From the NCBI GenBank assembly GCA_902524895.1, contig CABZFH010000001.1:1-64000 (forward strand): 64,000 nt of DNA, in the 5' to 3' direction. The notes beneath the pieces are model-generated. The model made no database searches. It was not told the origin of the DNA and saw only the letters and a list, made by a program, of their open reading frames with translations. This DNA comes from an uncultured Alphaproteobacteria bacterium (GTDB lineage: Bacteria; Pseudomonadota; Alphaproteobacteria; Methylaequorales; Methylaequoraceae). Positions 23,720 through 33,634 of this stretch are shown piece by piece. Position numbers and translations under genes: made by a program. The first letter of the stretch is position 1. Each line of letters opens with the position of its first letter.

Positions 23720-24907
23720 GTGACATTAGTTAATTTTTCATTAATTATTTTGCCACTAAGTTCATTAATTTGGTTGTATTTATTTTTTTTCCATGGAGGT
23801 TTTATATTTCCATTCTTCAATTCATTTTGGACAAACAAAATAATATTTGAAAAATTTCACGGATTTACAACAGAAAAAAAAATGAAAAACCAAATAGGAA
23901 TTGTTATCCCTGCAAGAAACGAGGAAAATATAATTACTAATTGTTTAGAAAGTGTTTTGAACCAAAAAAATGTGAAATTTGAGATCATTCTGGTTGATGA
24001 TCATAGTAATGATAATACGGTAAAAGTTTCTAAAGAAATGTTCAAAAAATATAACTTCAAAAATTATGTAATTTTGAAAAATAAAAAACTTCCTGAAACA
24101 TGGAATGGTAAAACGTGGGCACTTAACAATGGTGTAAAAAAAGCATTGCAGAACAAAAAAAACAAATATTTATTATTTTTAGACGCCGATATTTCCATCG
24201 ACCAATTTTTAATTAAAAATTTACAAAGAGCTATAGAAGAAAAAAAATATAAAATGATTTCAATTATGGCAAAACTTAACTGTAGCTATTTTTGGGAAAA
24301 ACTTCTAATTCCCAGTTTTATATTTTTCTTTCAAAAATTATATCCTTTTAATCATGTCAATAACCCTGAAAAAAAATTAGCTGCTGCTGCAGGGGGGTGT
24401 ATTTTTTGTGATATTTCAATTTTCAAAAAACAGAATTTATTAGAAAATATAAATAATAAGCTTATTGATGACTGTAATTTAGCTAAAGAAATAAAAAAAA
24501 TTGGGGCTATCTGGTTAGGATTATCTAACAAAGTTAAAAGTAACAGAAAATACAAGGATTTAAAATCAATATGGAAAATGGTTGAAAGGTGTGCATATGA
24601 ACAACTTGGAAAATCAATGATAATACTTTTTTTTACAATTTTGATGATGATTATAATTTACCTGAGCTGGATAATAGGTTTGATTATTGGTATTAAGGCT
24701 AGCAATCTTACAATTGTCTTACTTTCTTTATTTATATTTGTTATTTCTTTAATAACATTTTTTCCGACTATAAGATTTTATAAAATCAACTATTTCTATT
24801 GTTCTTTGGCATTTGTTTCAAGTATATTTTATATTCTTATGACAATTAGTTCTGCAAAGAATTATTATTTAAATCTAGGTACTGTTTGGAAGGGTAGAAA
24901 GTATTAA
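23720..24907 (+). CDS. hpnB: Hopanoid-associated glycosyltransferase HpnB
   Basis: 395 aa family 2 glycosyltransferase anchored in the membrane. The GT-A core follows an N-terminal membrane segment: IVIPARNEENIITNCLESV, then VDDHSNDNT, and the acceptor DADIS motif; the LPETWNGKTWALNNGV segment is typical of HpnB. Two or more hydrophobic helices close the protein. The start is GTG 23720 with AAAGGAAG upstream. It is the first gene of hpnB-hpnC-dxs-hpnD-hpnE-shc-hpnG. The sugar acceptor is unproven in this family. Confidence 0.85.
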   Translation: MTLVNFSLIILPLSSLIWLYLFFFHGGFIFPFFNSFWTNKIIFEKFHGFTTEKKMKNQIGIVIPARNEENIITNCLESVLNQKNVKFEIILVDDHSNDNTVKVSKEMFKKYNFKNYVILKNKKLPETWNGKTWALNNGVKKALQNKKNKYLLFLDADISIDQFLIKNLQRAIEEKKYKMISIMAKLNCSYFWEKLLIPSFIFFFQKLYPFNHVNNPEKKLAAAAGGCIFCDISIFKKQNLLENINNKLIDDCNLAKEIKKIGAIWLGLSNKVKSNRKYKDLKSIWKMVERCAYEQLGKSMIILFFTILMMIIIYLSWIIGLIIGIKASNLTIVLLSLFIFVISLITFFPTIRFYKINYFYCSLAFVSSIFYILMTISSAKNYYLNLGTVWKGRKY

Positions 24908-24917
24908 TTAAGTAATT

Positions 24918-25799
24918 ATGATGACTGAGATTAAAAAACTAAAATTTGAGGAATACAAAATAAAGCATAGCAAAAATGATAAAGAAGAGAATTTTCCAGT
25001 ATCCTCATTCTTAATTAGTAAAAATTATAAAAAGCATATAAAAAACCTTTATTTTTTTGCTAGATCAGCTGATGACATTGCAGATAGTAAAAGTCTTAAT
25101 TTGAATAAGAAATATGATCTTCTTAACGAATTTTACTACTTAGTAAAAAACAAAAAATATTCAAAGTATTTTTTTATTAACAACCTATTAGAAACATTAG
25201 AAACAACACAAATAAATAATCAATATCCGTTATTGCTTTTGGAAGCTTTCAAACAAGATGTAGAAAAGAAAAGGTATGATAGTTGGGAAGACCTCATAGA
25301 CTATTGCAACAAGTCCGCTAGTCCAGTAGGAAGATTTGTTATAGATCTTCATTTTTTTGATAGAACTGAAAAATGTAAAGATATCGATAAGATTTATTTA
25401 GGTTGCGATAATCTATGCAATTCATTACAGATTATTAATCATATACAAGATTGTAAAAAAGATTTTTTAGATTTGAATAGGATTTACCTACCCCAAGAAT
25501 ATTTTAGAAAATTAAATTGTTCATCTCAGAATTTGCTGGCTATTAATGAGAGGAAAAAAATTCTTGATGTTTTAAACATTTGTCTAGAAAACGTAGAACA
25601 ACTCTTAAAAATGTCAAAAAAATATATTCCTTTGATAAATAAAAGTTTTGGTCTTAAAAAAGAAACATATGTGATTTATAATATAGCAAAAAAATTGAAT
25701 TTCTTACTCAAAAAAAATGATCCCATTAAAAAAAATGTTAAACTCTCACATATTGATTTGATTTTTTGTTTTTTTAGAGGAATAATAGGTAGATTATAA
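24918..25799 (+). CDS. hpnC: Squalene synthase HpnC (hydroxysqualene synthase)
   Basis: Together with HpnD and HpnE this makes squalene in three steps in bacteria; HpnC acts on presqualene diphosphate to give hydroxysqualene. 293 aa of the trans-isoprenyl diphosphate synthase fold, with first Asp-rich motif in FARSADDIADS and the second region in LQIINHIQDCKKD. The NFPVSSFLISK N-terminus is typical of HpnC. It follows hpnB by 10 bp and may use either of two adjacent ATG codons (24918, 24921). Confidence 0.88.
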   Translation: MMTEIKKLKFEEYKIKHSKNDKEENFPVSSFLISKNYKKHIKNLYFFARSADDIADSKSLNLNKKYDLLNEFYYLVKNKKYSKYFFINNLLETLETTQINNQYPLLLLEAFKQDVEKKRYDSWEDLIDYCNKSASPVGRFVIDLHFFDRTEKCKDIDKIYLGCDNLCNSLQIINHIQDCKKDFLDLNRIYLPQEYFRKLNCSSQNLLAINERKKILDVLNICLENVEQLLKMSKKYIPLINKSFGLKKETYVIYNIAKKLNFLLKKNDPIKKNVKLSHIDLIFCFFRGIIGRL

Positions 25800-25844
25800 T
25801 TTTTATGTTTTCAAATATAAAAAAAAAGTTTAAGTTTGCAAATA

Positions 25845-27767
25845 ATGAATATTAAAACTCCAACATTAGACAAAGTAAAATTTCCAAAAGATCTTAAAAA
25901 TTTGGATGAAAAGGAACTCAAACTTTTAACAACCGAATTGAGAAATGAAGTAATTGATGCTGTATCAGTTACTGGCGGTCATTTAGGCGCAGGATTAGGT
26001 GTAGTTGAACTTACGATTGCAATACATAGAGTTTTTAACACTCCTAATGATAAACTAATTTGGGACGTAGGTCATCAATGTTATCCCCACAAGATCTTAA
26101 CAGGAAGAAGAAATAAAATTAGAACAATTCGTCAGCCAAATGGTTTATACGGATTTACAAAAAGATCAGAGAGTGAATACGATCCCTTTGGCGCGGCTCA
26201 TTCATCAACCTCCATTAGTGCAGGTTTAGGAATGGCTGTTGCTAGAGATCTTAAAAAAGAAAAGCACAAAGTAATATGCGTGATTGGGGACGGTGCTATA
26301 AGTGCAGGAATGGCATATGAGGCGATGAACAATGCTGGATCCATGAATGCCAATCTTATTGTAATTTTAAATGACAATGATATGTCTATTGCTCCTCCGG
26401 TTGGTGCAATGAGCGCTTATTTATCAAGACTTCTATCAGGAAAAACTTTTCAATCAGCTCGATCTCTTGCTAAACAAATGGCAGCTATGTTTCCTAAAAG
26501 ATTTAAAGATGTTGCAGCAAAAGCTGAGGGATATATGCGAGGAATGGTTACAGGAGGTACTTTGTTTGAGGAGCTAGGGTTCTTTTACGTTGGACCAGTT
26601 GATGGTCACAATTTAAATCACCTTCTTCCAGTTCTAAAAAATCTAAGAGATTCAAACTGGGATGGTCCAGTATTTTTGCATGTTGTGACAAAAAAGGGTT
26701 ATGGTTATGAACCAGCAGAAAAATCAGATGATAAATATCATGGTGTTGGAAAATTTAATGTTGTAACTGGAGAACAGGTAAAATCTATTTCTAAAGCTCC
26801 AAGTTATACAAAAACTTTTGCGAAAGCATTAATTCATAAAGCAAAAAAAGATAAAAAAATTGTTGCAGTTACTGCAGCAATGCCATCTGGAACAGGATTA
26901 GATTTGTTTGGAAAGGCTTTTCCTGATAGAACCTATGATGTTGGAATAGCTGAACAACATGCTGTAACGTTTTGTGCTGGTCTTGCTACAAGAGGCATGA
27001 AACCCTATGCTGCAATTTACTCAACCTTCCTTCAAAGAGCATATGACCAAGTGGTTCATGATGTTGCAATTCAGTCACTTCCTGTAAGATTTGCAGTTGA
27101 CAGAGCAGGTCAGGTCGGTGCAGATGGCGCAACTCACGCTGGGTCGTTCGATCTTGCTTATCTTTGTGCTCTTCCAAACTTCATAATCATGGCCCCAAGT
27201 GATGAAAATGAACTCATTGGATGTGTTAGCACCTCATTAGAAATTAATGATAAACCTTGTGCCTTCAGGTATCCTAGAGGCGAAGGATTTGGTGTAAAAC
27301 TTCATGAAGACCAAGATTCTTGGAAAATTGGAAAAGGAAGAATCGTTAAGGAAGGTTCAAAAGTTTGTATCCTTTCACTTGGAACAAGATTGAATGAGGC
27401 AATAATTGCTTCAGATGCGTTAGCTTCCTACGGATTAAGTACAACAGTGGCCGACGCTAGATTTGCAAAACCAATAGATACTAAAATGATAACTAAATTA
27501 GCTAAAAATCATCAAATTTTGATAAGTGTAGAGGAAGGGTCAATAGGTGGTTTCTCAGCTCAGGTGATGTCGTTTCTTACAAAGGAAGGTTTATTGGATA
27601 ATGGCCTTAAATTTAGACCGCTATTTTTCCCAGATATTTTTGTTCCACATGGCAAACCTGAAATACAAAACGATATTTGCGGTATAAATGCAAGGCAGAT
27701 AACTGATTGTGTGTTGAAGGCTTTAGGACTCCCTACTGTTTCAAAAGAATCAAGAGAAACTGCGTAA
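25845..27767 (+). CDS. dxs: 1-Deoxy-D-xylulose-5-phosphate synthase
   Basis: First step of the MEP isoprenoid pathway; a thiamine diphosphate enzyme joining pyruvate and glyceraldehyde 3-phosphate. Canonical features: [50 protein letters not shown] (ThDP-binding GDG) and [15 protein letters not shown]. The length of 640 aa is normal when starting at ATG 25845; an in-frame TTG at 25836 is possible. The gene is unusual in location, sitting between hpnC and hpnD, which ties precursor supply to hopanoid synthesis. GC content is visibly higher than in its neighbours, as expected for a conserved well-expressed gene. Confidence 0.96.
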
Positions 27768-27793
27768 AATTCAACAAATCTTTTATTCTTAGA

Positions 27794-28636
27794 ATGTGTG
27801 GAGTTGAAGACCAAAAAAAGATAAATCAGATAGTTAAAGAATCAGGAACATCTTTTTATTGGGGAATGAAAATTCTTAATAAAGAGAAAAGATTTGCAAT
27901 GTTTACTATATATGCATTTTGTAGAATTGTAGATGATATAGCAGATAGTGAACAAAACTTAGAAATTAAACTGTCGCAACTTAAAAATTGGAAATCCAAG
28001 ATAAATAAAGTTTACAAGGATCATTCATCAGATTCAATAACCAGAAAACTTTTGGAATCAAAAAATAAGTTTGGCCTAAAAAAAGAAGATTTTTTATCGA
28101 TAATTGAAGGAATGCGAATGGATATAATTGAAGAGATCAGATATCCTTCAAAGAAAAAAATTGATTTGTACTGCAGCAGAGTAGCAGGCGCAGTTGGATG
28201 CTTATCAATGAATATTTTTGGTATAAAAAGTAAATTAGGTAGAACGTATGCAGATCTATTGGGAAAAGCCTTTCAATTTACAAATATTTTAAGGGATTTA
28301 AAAGAAGATAGTGTGAGGAATAGATGCTATATCCCTTTAGATATAATAAAAAAATTTAAAAAAGAAAAAAAATCTCCTCAAGAGATAATAAAAGGTTTGG
28401 ATATTGAACTAATAAATAAAGAAATGATAAGAAGAACACAAAAATATTATGATGATGCAGAAAAAATTTCCAGAAAGTTCAAAAAAAAAGATCTTAAAGC
28501 TGCAATCTTAATGAAAGAATTTTATTATAATATTTTCAAAAAAATTTCAGTTAATAATATGAATTTATATAAAAAAATAAAGCTTTCTAAAATTGAAAAA
28601 TTAATTATTATCATCAGGTATTTTATTAGGAGTTAA
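27794..28636 (+). CDS. hpnD: Squalene synthase HpnD (presqualene diphosphate synthase)
   Basis: Condenses two farnesyl diphosphates to presqualene diphosphate. 280 aa with KESGTSFYWGMKIL at the N-terminus, the Asp-rich FCRIVDDIADSE, YCSRVAGAVGCLSMNIFG and the second Asp-rich site FTNILRDLKEDS. I start at ATG 27794; an in-frame ATG at 27707 lies inside dxs and adds a non-family extension. It ends two bases before the apparent start of hpnE. Confidence 0.92.
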   Translation: MCGVEDQKKINQIVKESGTSFYWGMKILNKEKRFAMFTIYAFCRIVDDIADSEQNLEIKLSQLKNWKSKINKVYKDHSSDSITRKLLESKNKFGLKKEDFLSIIEGMRMDIIEEIRYPSKKKIDLYCSRVAGAVGCLSMNIFGIKSKLGRTYADLLGKAFQFTNILRDLKEDSVRNRCYIPLDIIKKFKKEKKSPQEIIKGLDIELINKEMIRRTQKYYDDAEKISRKFKKKDLKAAILMKEFYYNIFKKISVNNMNLYKKIKLSKIEKLIIIIRYFIRS

Positions 28637-28637
28637 A

Positions 28638-29870
28638 ATTAAAAAAAAATTATACATAATAGGTGCTGGCTTGGCGGGTCTAAGCACAGCTTGTCACTCA
28701 GTTAAAAAAAACTTCGATGTAGAAATTTTTGAAGCAACTAAAAATGCTGGTGGAAGATGTAGATCTTTTTATGACAAAAAATTAGGAATAGAGATAGATA
28801 ATGGAAATCATTTGATTTTTTCCGCGAACAGTAATTTTTTGAATTATTGTAAATTGATAGGTTCAAAAAATACACTAAAAATATATGAGCCTAAATTTCA
28901 TTTCTTTGATCTTATTAATCAACACGATTGGTCAATTAAAATAAATGATGGACCTCTGCCTTTTTGGATTTTTAACAAAAACAATAGAGTTCCAGATACA
29001 TCATTAATTGATTATCTAAGTTTTTTAAAAATTTTAGTTTGCAAAGAAACTGACACAATAAGTGATCTATTCTACAACAACAAAATCTTACTTACTTCTT
29101 TTTGGGAACCATTAACTCTTGGTGTTCTCAACTCAAGTTGTGATCAAGCCTCGGCTTACTTGATACTAAATGTTTTAAAAAAAACATTTTTTAAAGGGGG
29201 TAAATTCTGTAAAATAATTCAGCCTGAGCAAAACTGGAATAAAACTTTAATTAATCCTTCTCTAGAATATTTAAAAAAAAATAAAATTAATCTAAATTAT
29301 AATAATTCATTAAAAAAAATTATTATTAAAAATAATTTTGTAAGTGAGCTTATATTTAATAAAGACACTAAAAAGGTTAAAAAGGAAGATATGGTCATCT
29401 TGTCAACGCCAATGAGTATGCTAAAGAAAATTTTTCCGAATATTATTCTACCTACAGAAAATAATACAATACTTAATATACATTTTAAGATTAAAATTAA
29501 ATCAAAATACAATCCGTTGTTTGGAATGTTAAACTCAATATCACATTGGGTTTTTATAAAAAGAGATCATATTTCCGTTACCGTTAGTGCCGCAAATAGA
29601 ATGAATGATTCTGATTCAAATGAAATTGCAAAAAAAATATGGCTAGAAGTATCGCAAGTATTTAAATTGAAAAAGAAATTACCTGAATATCAGGTTATTA
29701 AAGAAAAAAAAGCAACATACAATCAATCTCCAAAAAATATTAAATTAATACAGGAAATAAAAAATTTACCAAAAAATCTGAGACTTGCTGGTGACTGGAC
29801 ACAAAAAAATTTTCCTTGTACAATTGAAAGTGCTATCCTTTCTGGTAAAAATTCGTTGATAATTAACTAG
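28638..29870 (+). CDS. hpnE: Hydroxysqualene dehydroxylase HpnE, apparent AUU start
   Basis: FAD-dependent amine-oxidase-like enzyme that converts hydroxysqualene to squalene. The N-terminal Rossmann motif IIGAGLAGLSTA is followed by GGRCRSF; the C-terminal LAGDWTQ flavin motif is also present. The first ATG, GTG or TTG codon in frame (TTG 28671) falls inside the GxGxxG fingerprint, so it cannot be the start. The frame is open back to 28605. AGGAG at 28628-28632 precedes ATT at 28638 by 5 bases, and ATT lies one base after the hpnD stop, so AUU is the best start (410 aa). A point error changing ATG to ATT is the alternative. Confidence 0.85.
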   Translation: MKKKLYIIGAGLAGLSTACHSVKKNFDVEIFEATKNAGGRCRSFYDKKLGIEIDNGNHLIFSANSNFLNYCKLIGSKNTLKIYEPKFHFFDLINQHDWSIKINDGPLPFWIFNKNNRVPDTSLIDYLSFLKILVCKETDTISDLFYNNKILLTSFWEPLTLGVLNSSCDQASAYLILNVLKKTFFKGGKFCKIIQPEQNWNKTLINPSLEYLKKNKINLNYNNSLKKIIIKNNFVSELIFNKDTKKVKKEDMVILSTPMSMLKKIFPNIILPTENNTILNIHFKIKIKSKYNPLFGMLNSISHWVFIKRDHISVTVSAANRMNDSDSNEIAKKIWLEVSQVFKLKKKLPEYQVIKEKKATYNQSPKNIKLIQEIKNLPKNLRLAGDWTQKNFPCTIESAILSGKNSLIIN

Positions 29871-29890: not shown

Positions 29891-31795
29891 ATGATTTTCG
29901 AAGACAAAAACTTACTATCTGATATTGTTTCTGAATCTAAAAAAAATATTTCGAAAAAAATAAAAAATGATGGCCATTCTGTTTATGAGTTGGAAGCAGA
30001 TGTAACTATACCTGCTGAATATATTTTGATGATGCATTTTTTAGGTGATATAGATGTAAAGACAGAAGAAAAAATTAGAAATTATATTTTAAAAATACAA
30101 AATGAGGAAGGTGGGTGGCCTCTTTTCTTTAATGGAGAGTCAAATTTAAGTGCTACTGTAAAAGCTTATTTTGCTTTAAAACTTTCGGGTGTCGATGAAA
30201 ATAGCAAAAATATGCTAAAGGCAAAAGAAATAATAATTAAAAAAGGTGGTGCAGAGAGATCCAACGTTTTTACAAGAATTTTATTAGCTATGTTTGGTGA
30301 AATTTCGTGGAAAACAATCCCTACAATGCCTATTGAGATTATGATCTTACCTAAATGGTTTCCATTTAATTTGCAAAAAATTTCTTATTGGTCTCGAACT
30401 GTCTTGGTACCACTTTTAATAATTCTTCACAAAAGACCAATTGCCAACAATCCCACGGGTAAAAATATTTCAGAGCTATTTATAGAAAGAAACTCAGAAA
30501 AAATGTTCATTGAAAATAAAAGTTTCTTATCCAGAGTATTTAATCTCATTGACAAGATTTTAAAGAAAGTTGAAGTTTACTTTCCCAAAAAAAATAAGGA
30601 ATATTGTCTTAATTTAGCATATGATTGGGTTTGTAAGAGATTAAATTCAAAAGACGGCTTAGGAGCAATTTTTCCTGCAATGGTTAATGCACTTATAGCT
30701 CTTACTTTAAATGATTTAAAAGATTTCAAAAAAGAGATAGTTATTGCAAGGCAAGCAATTGATAATCTTCTAGTAGTAAAAAAAGAATATGCTTATTGTC
30801 AACCATGCGTTTCACCGGTTTGGGATACTGGATGGGTAGCGTATGGAATGATCGAAAATAATGCCGATATAACAAATTCTGTTGAATGGTTGCTAAGCAA
30901 GGAGATAAATTCAAAAGGGGATTGGAGTGAAACAAAACCTTTATTACAACCAGGGGGTTGGGCATTTCAATATAACAATAGTTTTTATCCAGATGTCGAT
31001 GATTCTGCCTTAGTTGGAATGGTTTTAGATAGATTCAATAAAAAAAAACCATCCAAAAAAGTTTCAGATGCAATAGAAAGAACTAGACTTTGGATAAAAG
31101 GTATGCAATCAAAAAATGGCGGTTGGGGTTCATTTGATTGTGATAATACATTTAGTTATTTAAATAAAATACCATTTGCAGATCATGGTGCTTTGCTAGA
31201 TCCTCCAACTGTTGATGTAACTGCAAGATGCTTGAGTTTTCTTGCGCAATTGGATAATAAAACGGACAGCTTATCGATTAAGAAGGCAGCAAAATATATT
31301 TTATCTGAACAAGAAAAAGATGGAAGTTGGTTCGGAAGATGGGGAACAAATTATATTTATGGAACTTGGTCAGCGCTATCTGCTTTAAGTCTAGTTGATT
31401 TTGAAGATAAGGAAAAAGTTTTTAATTTGGCTACTCACTTTTTAAAAACTAAACAACGAAAAGATGGAGGATGGGGAGAAGATGGAGCAACTTATGATAG
31501 AAATCATAGAGATTTAGTAAAGGCGAGCACTCCCTCTCAAACTGCATGGGCCATATTGGGATTAATTGCTGCAGGACAGATTCAGTCTGAAAATGTTAAA
31601 AAAGGAATTTCCTATTTAACAAATTTATTTTCAGAAAAAAAAAATTGGGAAGAAAAATACTACACAGCAGTTGGATTTCCAAAAGTCTTTTATTTAAAAT
31701 ATCATGGATATGCAGAGTATTTTCCTTTTTTAGCTGTGTCCCGCTACAAAAATTTGAGAAATTTAAACTATCAAAAAAATTCTTACGGTGTTTAA
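29891..31795 (+). CDS. shc: Squalene-hopene cyclase
   Basis: Cyclises squalene to hopene/hopanol at the membrane. The 634 aa protein shows the catalytic acid motif D368-V-D370-D371 (usually DxDDT, here followed by Ser-Ala) and several QW repeats, including GGWPLF near the N-terminus, GGWGSFDCDN, GSWFGRWGTNYIYG and GGWGED. The hydrophobic stretch near residues 150-180 fits the membrane-dipping helix. It overlaps hpnG by 8 bp. Confidence 0.95.
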   Translation: MIFEDKNLLSDIVSESKKNISKKIKNDGHSVYELEADVTIPAEYILMMHFLGDIDVKTEEKIRNYILKIQNEEGGWPLFFNGESNLSATVKAYFALKLSGVDENSKNMLKAKEIIIKKGGAERSNVFTRILLAMFGEISWKTIPTMPIEIMILPKWFPFNLQKISYWSRTVLVPLLIILHKRPIANNPTGKNISELFIERNSEKMFIENKSFLSRVFNLIDKILKKVEVYFPKKNKEYCLNLAYDWVCKRLNSKDGLGAIFPAMVNALIALTLNDLKDFKKEIVIARQAIDNLLVVKKEYAYCQPCVSPVWDTGWVAYGMIENNADITNSVEWLLSKEINSKGDWSETKPLLQPGGWAFQYNNSFYPDVDDSALVGMVLDRFNKKKPSKKVSDAIERTRLWIKGMQSKNGGWGSFDCDNTFSYLNKIPFADHGALLDPPTVDVTARCLSFLAQLDNKTDSLSIKKAAKYILSEQEKDGSWFGRWGTNYIYGTWSALSALSLVDFEDKEKVFNLATHFLKTKQRKDGGWGEDGATYDRNHRDLVKASTPSQTAWAILGLIAAGQIQSENVKKGISYLTNLFSEKKNWEEKYYTAVGFPKVFYLKYHGYAEYFPFLAVSRYKNLRNLNYQKNSYGV

Positions 31796-32447
31796 AAAAA
31801 AATCTGATTTCGGTTTCATCGTAGGAGTCAAAGAAGAATATAATGCCTTAAAAAACACAAAATATTATGTAAAAATAGCCTATGGAGCAAAAAATGCTTC
31901 AAAGGCTGCCAAAATTTTATGCAAAAAAGTTGAGTGCATTGTAAGCTTTGGTTTTGCTGGATCTATTGATTCAAAATTGACAAATGGAGAAATTATTGTC
32001 CCAAAATTTCTAGTTGGTAAGAACAAAAAGAAAAAATTCTTATCTTCTAAATATAGATCAACCATATTGCACAAACTCTCAAACCAAGAAGTTAATGAAA
32101 AAGGAATTATCTCAGTTGACAAAATAATAAATGAAAATGAGAGAAAAAAAAGGATTTACGAAAAATTCAAAGCCTCTTCAATCGATATGGAATCTGATTC
32201 CATTTATAAAATCTGTTATGAGAAAAAAATACCATTAATTATTGTAAGAGTCATTTTTGATGATTTAAATTTTAACATACCAAATTTTATAGTTAAAAGT
32301 ACAAATAGCAACGGTGATGTTTCTATCGCAAGTTTACTAAAGTTTGTATCAACAAGCCCCAAAAATTTCTTTGTTTTAGTTAGGGTTTATATCTACTATC
32401 TAAGAGCCATAAGAAAATTAAAAGAAATCTCAGAAAAATGCTTCTAA
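31788..32447 (+). CDS. hpnG: Hopanoid-associated nucleoside phosphorylase HpnG
   Basis: Removes adenine from adenosylhopane to give ribosylhopane (family role). 219 aa of the phosphorylase/nucleosidase fold: N-terminal FGFIVGVKEEYNAL, a SFGFAGSIDSKLTNGEIIVP segment (GxAG type) and the late IDMESDSIYKICYEKKIP with the catalytic region. The start is GTG 31788, overlapping the end of shc. It is the last rightward gene of the hopanoid operon and converges with hpnH two bases away. Confidence 0.85.
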   Translation: MFKKKSDFGFIVGVKEEYNALKNTKYYVKIAYGAKNASKAAKILCKKVECIVSFGFAGSIDSKLTNGEIIVPKFLVGKNKKKKFLSSKYRSTILHKLSNQEVNEKGIISVDKIINENERKKRIYEKFKASSIDMESDSIYKICYEKKIPLIIVRVIFDDLNFNIPNFIVKSTNSNGDVSIASLLKFVSTSPKNFFVLVRVYIYYLRAIRKLKEISEKCF

Positions 32448-32449
32448 AC

Positions 32450-33565
32450 TTACATTAAATCAAGTTCGTACATTTTTGCTTCCAATATTTTTTCATAAAC
32501 ATCTTCAGCTGGTCTGGCTGTTTGCTGACTTATTTCTTCTGGCATTGGACCAACAGTTTTAATTCCAATGACTTTTTTACCTAACGCCTTAATTGGAGAT
32601 TTTACAATCTCGCTTATTGCTGTAGCCTCATGACCACAGTGAGTCATGCAATCTTTACATTTTGTATAATTCCCATTTCCATACATTTTCCAATCAGTTT
32701 TTTGCATTAACTCATCAAATGTTTTATAATATCCCTCTGCTAAATGAAAACAAGGTTTTTGCCAACCAAATATATTAAATGTTGGAGTCGCCCAAGGGGA
32801 GCAAGTATACACCTGATTACCAGCCAAAAAATCTAGATACAAATCTGTTTGGTTAAATTTCCATTTTTTAAAATTTTTAGATTTAAAGATAGCCCTGAAA
32901 ATTCTTTTTATAGCTTCTCTGTTTAGAAAACTTTCTTGGTTTGTAGCTCTTTCATAAGCAAACCCTGGAGTCAGATTTATTCCATCAATATTTAAATCAA
33001 ATGTTAAATAGTTTAAAAAATCAATAATCTTTTTTGTTCTTTGATGATTATATACCGTACAATTTACGGTAACTCTAAAGCCTCTAGTTTTAGCCAAGTT
33101 TATTGAGTGAACTGCCTCATTAAAAACTCCTTCTTGCCCAGAAATTTTGTCATGATCTTCCTTATCTCCATTTAGTTCTATTGACCATGTCAAGTATCTG
33201 CTAGGACTATAATCATAAATTTTTTTTTGAACTAGTAAACCGTTAGTGCATATGTACGTATATTTTCTATTGTCTACTAGTTTTTCAACAATTTCTGGCA
33301 TATCATCACTTAAAAGAGGTTCTCCACCAGTAATTGCTACCATTGGGGCTTCACATTCCTTACTAGCATACAAACATCTTTCTGGACTGAGGTATTCTTC
33401 CATAACAGCATCTGGATAATCGATTTTACCAGACAAATCTGATTTAAGATTATTTTTAAAATGTGGTTCAAGCATTAAAACAATCGGAAATTTTTTCATA
33501 TTGTTTAATTTACAACTAGTAATGTATTTTGCTATTTTTAATTGTTCAAAAAAAGATACAGACAT
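32450..33565 (-). CDS. hpnH: HpnH-like hopanoid radical-SAM protein lacking the CxxxCxxC motif
   Basis: HpnH normally adds the adenosyl radical to hopene to make adenosylhopane. The protein (371 aa) aligns along its length: PIVLMLEPHF, GKIDYP, ITGGEPLL (SAM-binding GGE at residues 80-82), ICTNGLL, the FLAGNQVYTCSPW segment and the C-terminal CKDCMTHCGHEAT. At the site where the family has FRCNLACAGCGK it reads FKNNLKSDLSGK, so the three Fe-S cysteines are replaced by N38, S42 and S45. Each is at codon level a change of one to two bases (AAT, TCA, TCT), not a frameshift. Without the cluster, radical SAM chemistry is not expected. Fold assignment is firm; activity is doubtful. Confidence 0.88.
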   Translation of the reverse strand: MSVSFFEQLKIAKYITSCKLNNMKKFPIVLMLEPHFKNNLKSDLSGKIDYPDAVMEEYLSPERCLYASKECEAPMVAITGGEPLLSDDMPEIVEKLVDNRKYTYICTNGLLVQKKIYDYSPSRYLTWSIELNGDKEDHDKISGQEGVFNEAVHSINLAKTRGFRVTVNCTVYNHQRTKKIIDFLNYLTFDLNIDGINLTPGFAYERATNQESFLNREAIKRIFRAIFKSKNFKKWKFNQTDLYLDFLAGNQVYTCSPWATPTFNIFGWQKPCFHLAEGYYKTFDELMQKTDWKMYGNGNYTKCKDCMTHCGHEATAISEIVKSPIKALGKKVIGIKTVGPMPEEISQQTARPAEDVYEKILEAKMYELDLM

Positions 33566-33589
33566 TTTTAATTTATATTTTTTAAAAAA

Positions 33590-33616
33590 AAGCCCAAAGT
33601 ATCATACTTTGGGCTT
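33590..33616 (-). terminator. Rho-independent terminator downstream of amt
   Basis: Stem AAGCCCAAAGTAT / ATACTTTGGGCTT with a very small loop, followed on the leftward strand by a T tract. It lies 18 bp past the amt stop and upstream of hpnH, so it separates the two leftward genes. Confidence 0.85.
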
Positions 33617-33634
33617 AAAAAAAATTTTAGATAC

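Follow-up and report, generated by a model that had tools for sequence, protein, structure and literature searches.

The gene hpnH', located in the hopanoid locus of an uncultured alphaproteobacterium, is with a probability of about 90% a maintained pseudo-radical-SAM paralogue of HpnH. It lies within the window, by which we mean the whole stretch of 64,000 nucleotides analyzed here (Table 1). The loss of radical chemistry, the selection acting on hpnH' and the presence of a second HpnH in the same genome are all well supported. HpnH, a radical-SAM enzyme that produces adenosylhopane out of diploptene and SAM, performs the first committed step towards C35 hopanoids, from which geological hopane biomarkers derive, and it serves as a marker gene for the capacity to produce them.

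The product of hpnH' matches the HpnH family profile TIGR03470 with 434 bits (cut-off 225) over model positions 1-317 of 318, and its C-terminal domain matches Pfam DUF3463 (PF11946) with 174 bits. The Pfam Radical_SAM match starts at residue 57, compared to residue 35 in the canonical copy. The cluster site reads FKNNLKSDLSGK, whereas CxxxCxxC is found in all 139 other distinct HpnH sequences that we sampled, a difference beyond chance. The original prediction of the loss of all three radical-SAM cysteines (N38, S42 and S45) was verified at the level of open reading frame, coordinates, strand and residues, and the three codons are indeed two, two and one bases away from Cys codons. Also the family sequence, the intact frame, the SAM-binding GGE (within GGEP) and the C-terminal cysteines are preserved as predicted, together with Cys106. 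Five residues of the cluster loop (35, 38, 42, 44 and 45) are altered, all of them invariant in the 139 canonical sequences. We excluded that the cysteines were displaced by a shift of frame or alignment because the alignment to HpnH has no gaps through the motif. N38, S42 and S45 were likewise rejected as substitute ligands, since the residues at these positions differ between paralogues (N/S/T, S/K and S/C, respectively). An active radical-SAM enzyme combines the three-cysteine motif with the barrel; in hpnH' the barrel is predicted and the cysteines are absent. Because no standard radical-SAM cluster forms without the three cysteines, we infer with high confidence that hpnH' is very unlikely to cleave SAM or to generate the 5'-deoxyadenosyl radical.

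Table 1. Features of the window at the hopanoid locus and within hpnH'
Feature	Position	Strand	Remarks
hpnB-like glycosyltransferase	23720..24907	+	TIGR03469 365 bits, slightly below cut-off 379
hpnC-like squalene/phytoene synthase	24918..25799	+	Position and sequence; syntenic in relatives
dxs	25836..27767	+	Position and sequence; syntenic in relatives
hpnD-like squalene/phytoene synthase	27707..28636	+	Position and sequence; syntenic in relatives
hpnE-like amine oxidoreductase	28671..29870	+	Position and sequence; syntenic in relatives
shc / hpnF, squalene-hopene cyclase	29891..31795	+	TIGR01507 716 bits
hpnG, convergent neighbour of hpnH'	31788..32447	+	115.8 bits, below cut-off 187.1; divergent
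hpnH', HpnH paralogue without radical-SAM cysteines	33565..32450	-	371 aa; TIGR03470, DUF3463, paralogue clade
Invariant C-terminal KMYELDLM, newly gained	32453..32476	-	End of confidently predicted helix 357-370
Twitch-like auxiliary-cluster cysteines, C255-x11-G-x4-C272 ... C303-x2-C306-x3-C310	32636..32803	-	All five kept
Residue 130, Glu	33176..33178	-	His in 139/139 canonical HpnH; aligned with MoaA Ser126
Cys106, kept	33248..33250	-	Radical-reducing Cys of Zymomonas HpnH
GGEP motif, residues 80-83, kept	33317..33328	-	No variation in paralogues or canonical HpnH
Former [4Fe-4S]/SAM cluster loop, residues 35-47	33425..33463	-	HFKNNLKSDLSGK in place of LFRCNLACAGCGK
Codon 45, TCT (Ser for Cys)	33431..33433	-	1 base from Cys codon
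Codon 42, TCA (Ser for Cys)	33440..33442	-	2 bases from Cys codon
Codon 38, AAT (Asn for Cys)	33452..33454	-	2 bases from Cys codon
Terminator-like hairpin between amt and hpnH'	33590..33616	-	T runs flank it on both strands

A search of the genome of the window (1.43 Mb, 27 contigs) identified a canonical HpnH at G000:C5:68205-69161, with 549 bits and a complete set of cysteines (FRCNLACAGCGK). It is located on another contig than hpnH', with ispH directly upstream. The second HpnH that had been suggested therefore exists, and hpnH' as the sole HpnH, with loss of C35 hopanoids, was rejected. A relaxed pathway, also proposed, finds no support, since shc, hpnG and hpnE are intact and so is the canonical HpnH. 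As a reading of hpnH' itself, the suggested repurposed protein is the best supported in that hpnH' is a maintained and diverged paralogue, while its new role is inferred. Judging from its genes, the organism can be expected to still synthesize adenosylhopane. The retention of hpnG, correctly noted in the original prediction, is thus explained, as the canonical HpnH should still supply adenosylhopane.

To define the distribution of the paralogue, 32 genomes of the marine family TMED127/"Methylaequorales" were searched. We found hpnH' in five of them, from four genera: the window genome (G000), AG-337-B08 (G001), AG-896-A16 (G002), the metagenome-assembled genome MED657 (G004) and AH-716-M15 (G005). 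The same four relatives came up when 84,980 species genomes were scanned, and the AG- and AH- isolates are, judging from their names, single-cell genomes. MED657 belongs to the order TMED127, with the proposed name Methylaequorales, which comprises one family and 12 genera (PMC12542740); 12 genera were also counted here. The five paralogues score 742-780 bits with a paralogue profile, as opposed to 518-533 bits for full-length canonical copies. Residues 38/42/45 are N/S/S in G000 and G001, S/S/C in G002, N/S/C in G004 and T/K/C in G005. The same substitutions thus recur in G001, whose protein is 97% identical to hpnH', Cys38 and Cys42 are lost in all five genomes, and none of the orthologues has cysteine at all three positions (Cys45 is kept in three and lost in G000 and G001). 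HpnH-type matches were found in 105 out of 385 genomes sampled across the class, with the window genome as the only one to have a pair. In a sample of 399 genomes of the phylum, just one further genome carried a pair of HpnH matches (G549:C100:1542-2510, 540 bits, and G549:C242:9913-10875, 525 bits), both with canonical-like scores.

In a rooted HpnH tree, the paralogues form one clade (100/100) on a long stem (1.13), and their sister group is the canonical TMED127 HpnH (support 90/88). The five carrier genomes also form one clade (100/100) in a tree of dxs, shc and ispH, where a single change is needed, and hence the paralogue was gained once. Horizontal import is not favoured, as the paralogues group beside TMED127 HpnH and the carriers are one clade. 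The gene order in G004 and G005 is ispH-hpnH-hpnH' in tandem, followed by the convergent hpnG and shc, and the other genera that we sampled have the same locus without hpnH'. In G000 and G001 the two copies are split, with hpnH next to ispH and hpnH' beside hpnG, while in G002 hpnH' lies alone at another place, away from hpnG. Since hpnH and hpnH' are no longer adjacent in these three genomes, they are not co-transcribed there. The simplest account is a tandem duplication followed by rearrangement. The exact time of the duplication is uncertain, given the support of 90/88 and the long stem. In the genus of the window, ispH-hpnH (C5, L001) now precedes unrelated genes, and hpnH' (C1) has amt on its upstream side. 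In this genus, large open reading frames on the opposite strand follow the canonical hpnH (L001:2661-3812 and L040:6421-11270), at the place occupied by hpnG and shc in other genera.

The spacer between amt and hpnH' is 69 bp long (33566-33634) and contains the hairpin, which is kept in G001. The ATG of hpnH' is around 25 nt past the hairpin, and a TATAAA (TATAAT in G001) ends 6 nt before it, a position that may indicate an unusual or leaderless promoter. On the other side of hpnH', hpnG is highly divergent in the family, with 30-41% identity to other genera. Its absence from G002 was rejected, because tblastn detected a copy with 30% identity. In G010 and G017, tblastn found no hpnG, and a gap of suitable size is present between hpnH and shc. 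The search for HpnJ in the family returned only matches below the cut-off, which give no clue to the downstream hopanoids.

We compared hpnH' between the two species represented by G000 and G001 and counted 32 synonymous and 11 non-synonymous differences, corresponding to a dN/dS of 0.075 (bootstrap 0.032-0.148; Fisher P-value ~1.6e-15). The dN/dS is 0.043 for the canonical hpnH, 0.053 for shc and 0.238 for hpnG, and neighbouring genes range from 0.03 (dxs) to 0.33. These data indicate purifying selection on a gene that the original prediction described as not decayed. Across genera, dN of the paralogue is 0.24-0.30 versus 0.11-0.12 for the canonical HpnH in the same genome pairs, which means that the paralogue evolves approximately 2-2.5 times faster. 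Relative to the canonical copies of the same genomes, conservation is lower in every region of the paralogues except the C-terminal tail. The strongest drop is in the cluster loop (identity 0.58 in paralogues and 1.00 in canonical copies), whereas the tail has an identity of 0.67 and 0.64, respectively, and KMYELDLM is invariant with codons that differ synonymously. A lost catalytic motif, purifying selection and a motif-bearing paralogue in the same genome together characterize hpnH' as a maintained pseudoenzyme.

That hpnH' is an artefact of sequencing, assembly or binning could be suspected from the draft state of the genome (27 contigs, estimated completeness of 84.5%). However, orthologues with 97, 66, 64 and 63% identity are present in independent assemblies, and around 15 kb of G001 have the same gene order as the window. 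The original prediction had already judged simple sequencing error unlikely, and the artefact as a whole is refuted. Decay of a pseudogene on its way out would agree with the faster evolution of hpnH' and with its absence from other TMED127 genera, but the frame is complete in five genomes, dN/dS is far below 1, the tail is invariant and the gene is kept in small genomes. We therefore rejected decay, which is very improbable.

At the residue level, L35, C38, C42, G44, H130 and L274 are invariant in canonical HpnH (139 distinct sequences, one of which ends before position 274) and absent from all five paralogues. HMMER aligns residue 130 with MoaA Ser126, which we take to contact SAM at the position of its ribose, and residue 106 with MoaA Thr102. 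Besides GGEP, the paralogues retain N108 and Y204. The twitch-like cysteines are invariant among them, and since C255-x11-G-x4-C272 agrees with the twitch/SPASM pattern, hpnH' likely binds one auxiliary [4Fe-4S] cluster of the twitch type. Cys106, which reduces the hopanyl radical in Zymomonas HpnH (PMC12583986 and references therein), is present in four of the five paralogues and is Ser in G004. In addition, Leu274 is replaced by His in all five. The conserved C-terminal tail is the one clear gain of the paralogues; its conservation as a result of abutting hpnG was rejected, because the tail is also present in the G002 copy, which is not located near hpnG. The AF2 model of hpnH' reaches a pLDDT of 91, although confidence drops over residues 41-50, and residues 357-370 form a helix; the model of the canonical HpnH has nearly identical secondary structure. 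The best solved Foldseek matches of the hpnH' model are radical-SAM enzymes of the twitch/SPASM type.

For the function of hpnH', we give about even odds to a non-catalytic partner or an intermediate-handling scaffold for HpnH and/or HpnG. We rank this role as the most likely because of the conserved tail and of the tandem origin beside hpnG. The paralogue itself has a single origin within a subclade of TMED127/Methylaequorales, and the simplest source is a tandem duplication that placed it between ispH-hpnH and hpnG-shc. The catalytic motif survived in one of the two copies. The other no longer has the SAM-cluster cysteines or the His aligned with the SAM-ribose position, but it is still intact, and purifying selection on it persisted while the copies diverged and the locus was rearranged. 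The resulting protein would bind no radical-SAM cluster and keep the barrel, the GGEP loop, in most cases Cys106, and one auxiliary [4Fe-4S] cluster. It may dock on HpnH and/or HpnG via the newly conserved C-terminal helix (KMYELDLM), and its old pocket perhaps binds diploptene or adenosylhopane. The canonical HpnH of paralogue-bearing genomes has just one diagnostic position (343), and hence there is no strong sign of a co-evolving interface; another partner could account for the conserved tail. The separation of hpnH and hpnH' in G000, G001 and G002 also speaks against a partner role.

Two other functions are each considerably less probable than a partner or scaffold. As a negative regulator or decoy, hpnH' would bind the substrate of HpnH or form inactive hetero-oligomers, throttling C35 hopanoids relative to diploptene. 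Such a role is a common fate of inactive duplicates, and in the genus of the window hpnH' could be regulated separately, since it lies apart from hpnH, after amt and behind the terminator-like hairpin. The closely spaced tandem on the same strand in G004 and G005 suggests instead that it is co-produced with HpnH. Alternatively, hpnH' could have become an enzyme for a non-radical step, such as a redox or hydrolytic reaction on a hopanoid intermediate, by means of the auxiliary cluster, Cys106 and His274. The invariant twitch-like cysteines and the invariant change of Leu274 to His speak for this, and the enzyme converting ribosylhopane to bacteriohopanetetrol was described as unknown (PMC5462960). 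However, relatives without the paralogue have the same hpn genes, so hpnH' fills no general gap in the pathway; moreover, its barrel residues are less conserved than those of canonical HpnH and Cys106 is Ser in G004. The more specific proposal that hpnH' uses the auxiliary [4Fe-4S] cluster and His274 to process adenosyl- or ribosylhopane into a C35 hopanoid specific to the subclade is less probable still; if true, this subclade of ocean methylotrophs would have a C35 hopanoid that is missing from its relatives.

Compared to known systems, hpnH' is closest to HpnH itself (TIGR03470), to which it is homologous over the full length, with around 41-51% identity, the same predicted fold, a hopanoid gene neighbourhood, and GGEP, Cys106 and the DUF3463 domain with its cysteines in common. 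It differs in the absence of CxxxCxxC, in the changes of Leu35, Gly44, His130 and Leu274, and in the new invariant tail. The haloarchaeal pseudo-SAM/SPASM family TIGR04347 (NCBIfam) is, by its name, derived from radical-SAM proteins and presumed to lack SAM chemistry; it is a different family (44 bits for hpnH', cut-off 525). HemW and CgdH2 of C. jejuni are relatives of radical-SAM enzymes that act as heme chaperones, and provide a precedent for a protein of radical-SAM fold that serves as the chaperone of a metabolite and binds the product of a pathway (PMC10320005). Unlike the hopanoid-linked hpnH', both handle heme; a radical-SAM cysteine motif is still present in CgdH2, and HemW retains an iron-sulfur cluster. 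BlsE, SuiB and anSME (7vob, 5v1t and 4k36) are among the top Foldseek matches (probability 1.00, TM around 0.5-0.65, around 16% identity) and, in contrast to hpnH', are active enzymes with a SAM cluster. In the literature on HpnH paralogues, pseudo-SAM proteins and DUF3463 we found no description of hpnH', which is, relative to the literature searched, a new pseudoenzyme paralogue of HpnH.

The conserved and clusterless hpnH' shows that an HpnH match above the NCBIfam cut-off is not proof of a working enzyme. It also offers a natural dissection of the fold, in which SAM chemistry is gone while the barrel, Cys106 and the auxiliary-cluster cysteines remain. If HpnH does have a pseudoenzyme partner, the two genes would make up a system open to test. 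TMED127 were reported to exceed all other methylotrophs of open-ocean surface water in transcriptional activity, and a hopanoid cluster beside their methylotrophy island was mentioned (PMC12542740, in whose text 'hpn' gave no match). The host of hpnH' is a marine, methanol-eating bacterium that has a canonical HpnH and an old cysteine-less duplicate of it, whose new role is probably that of a helper.
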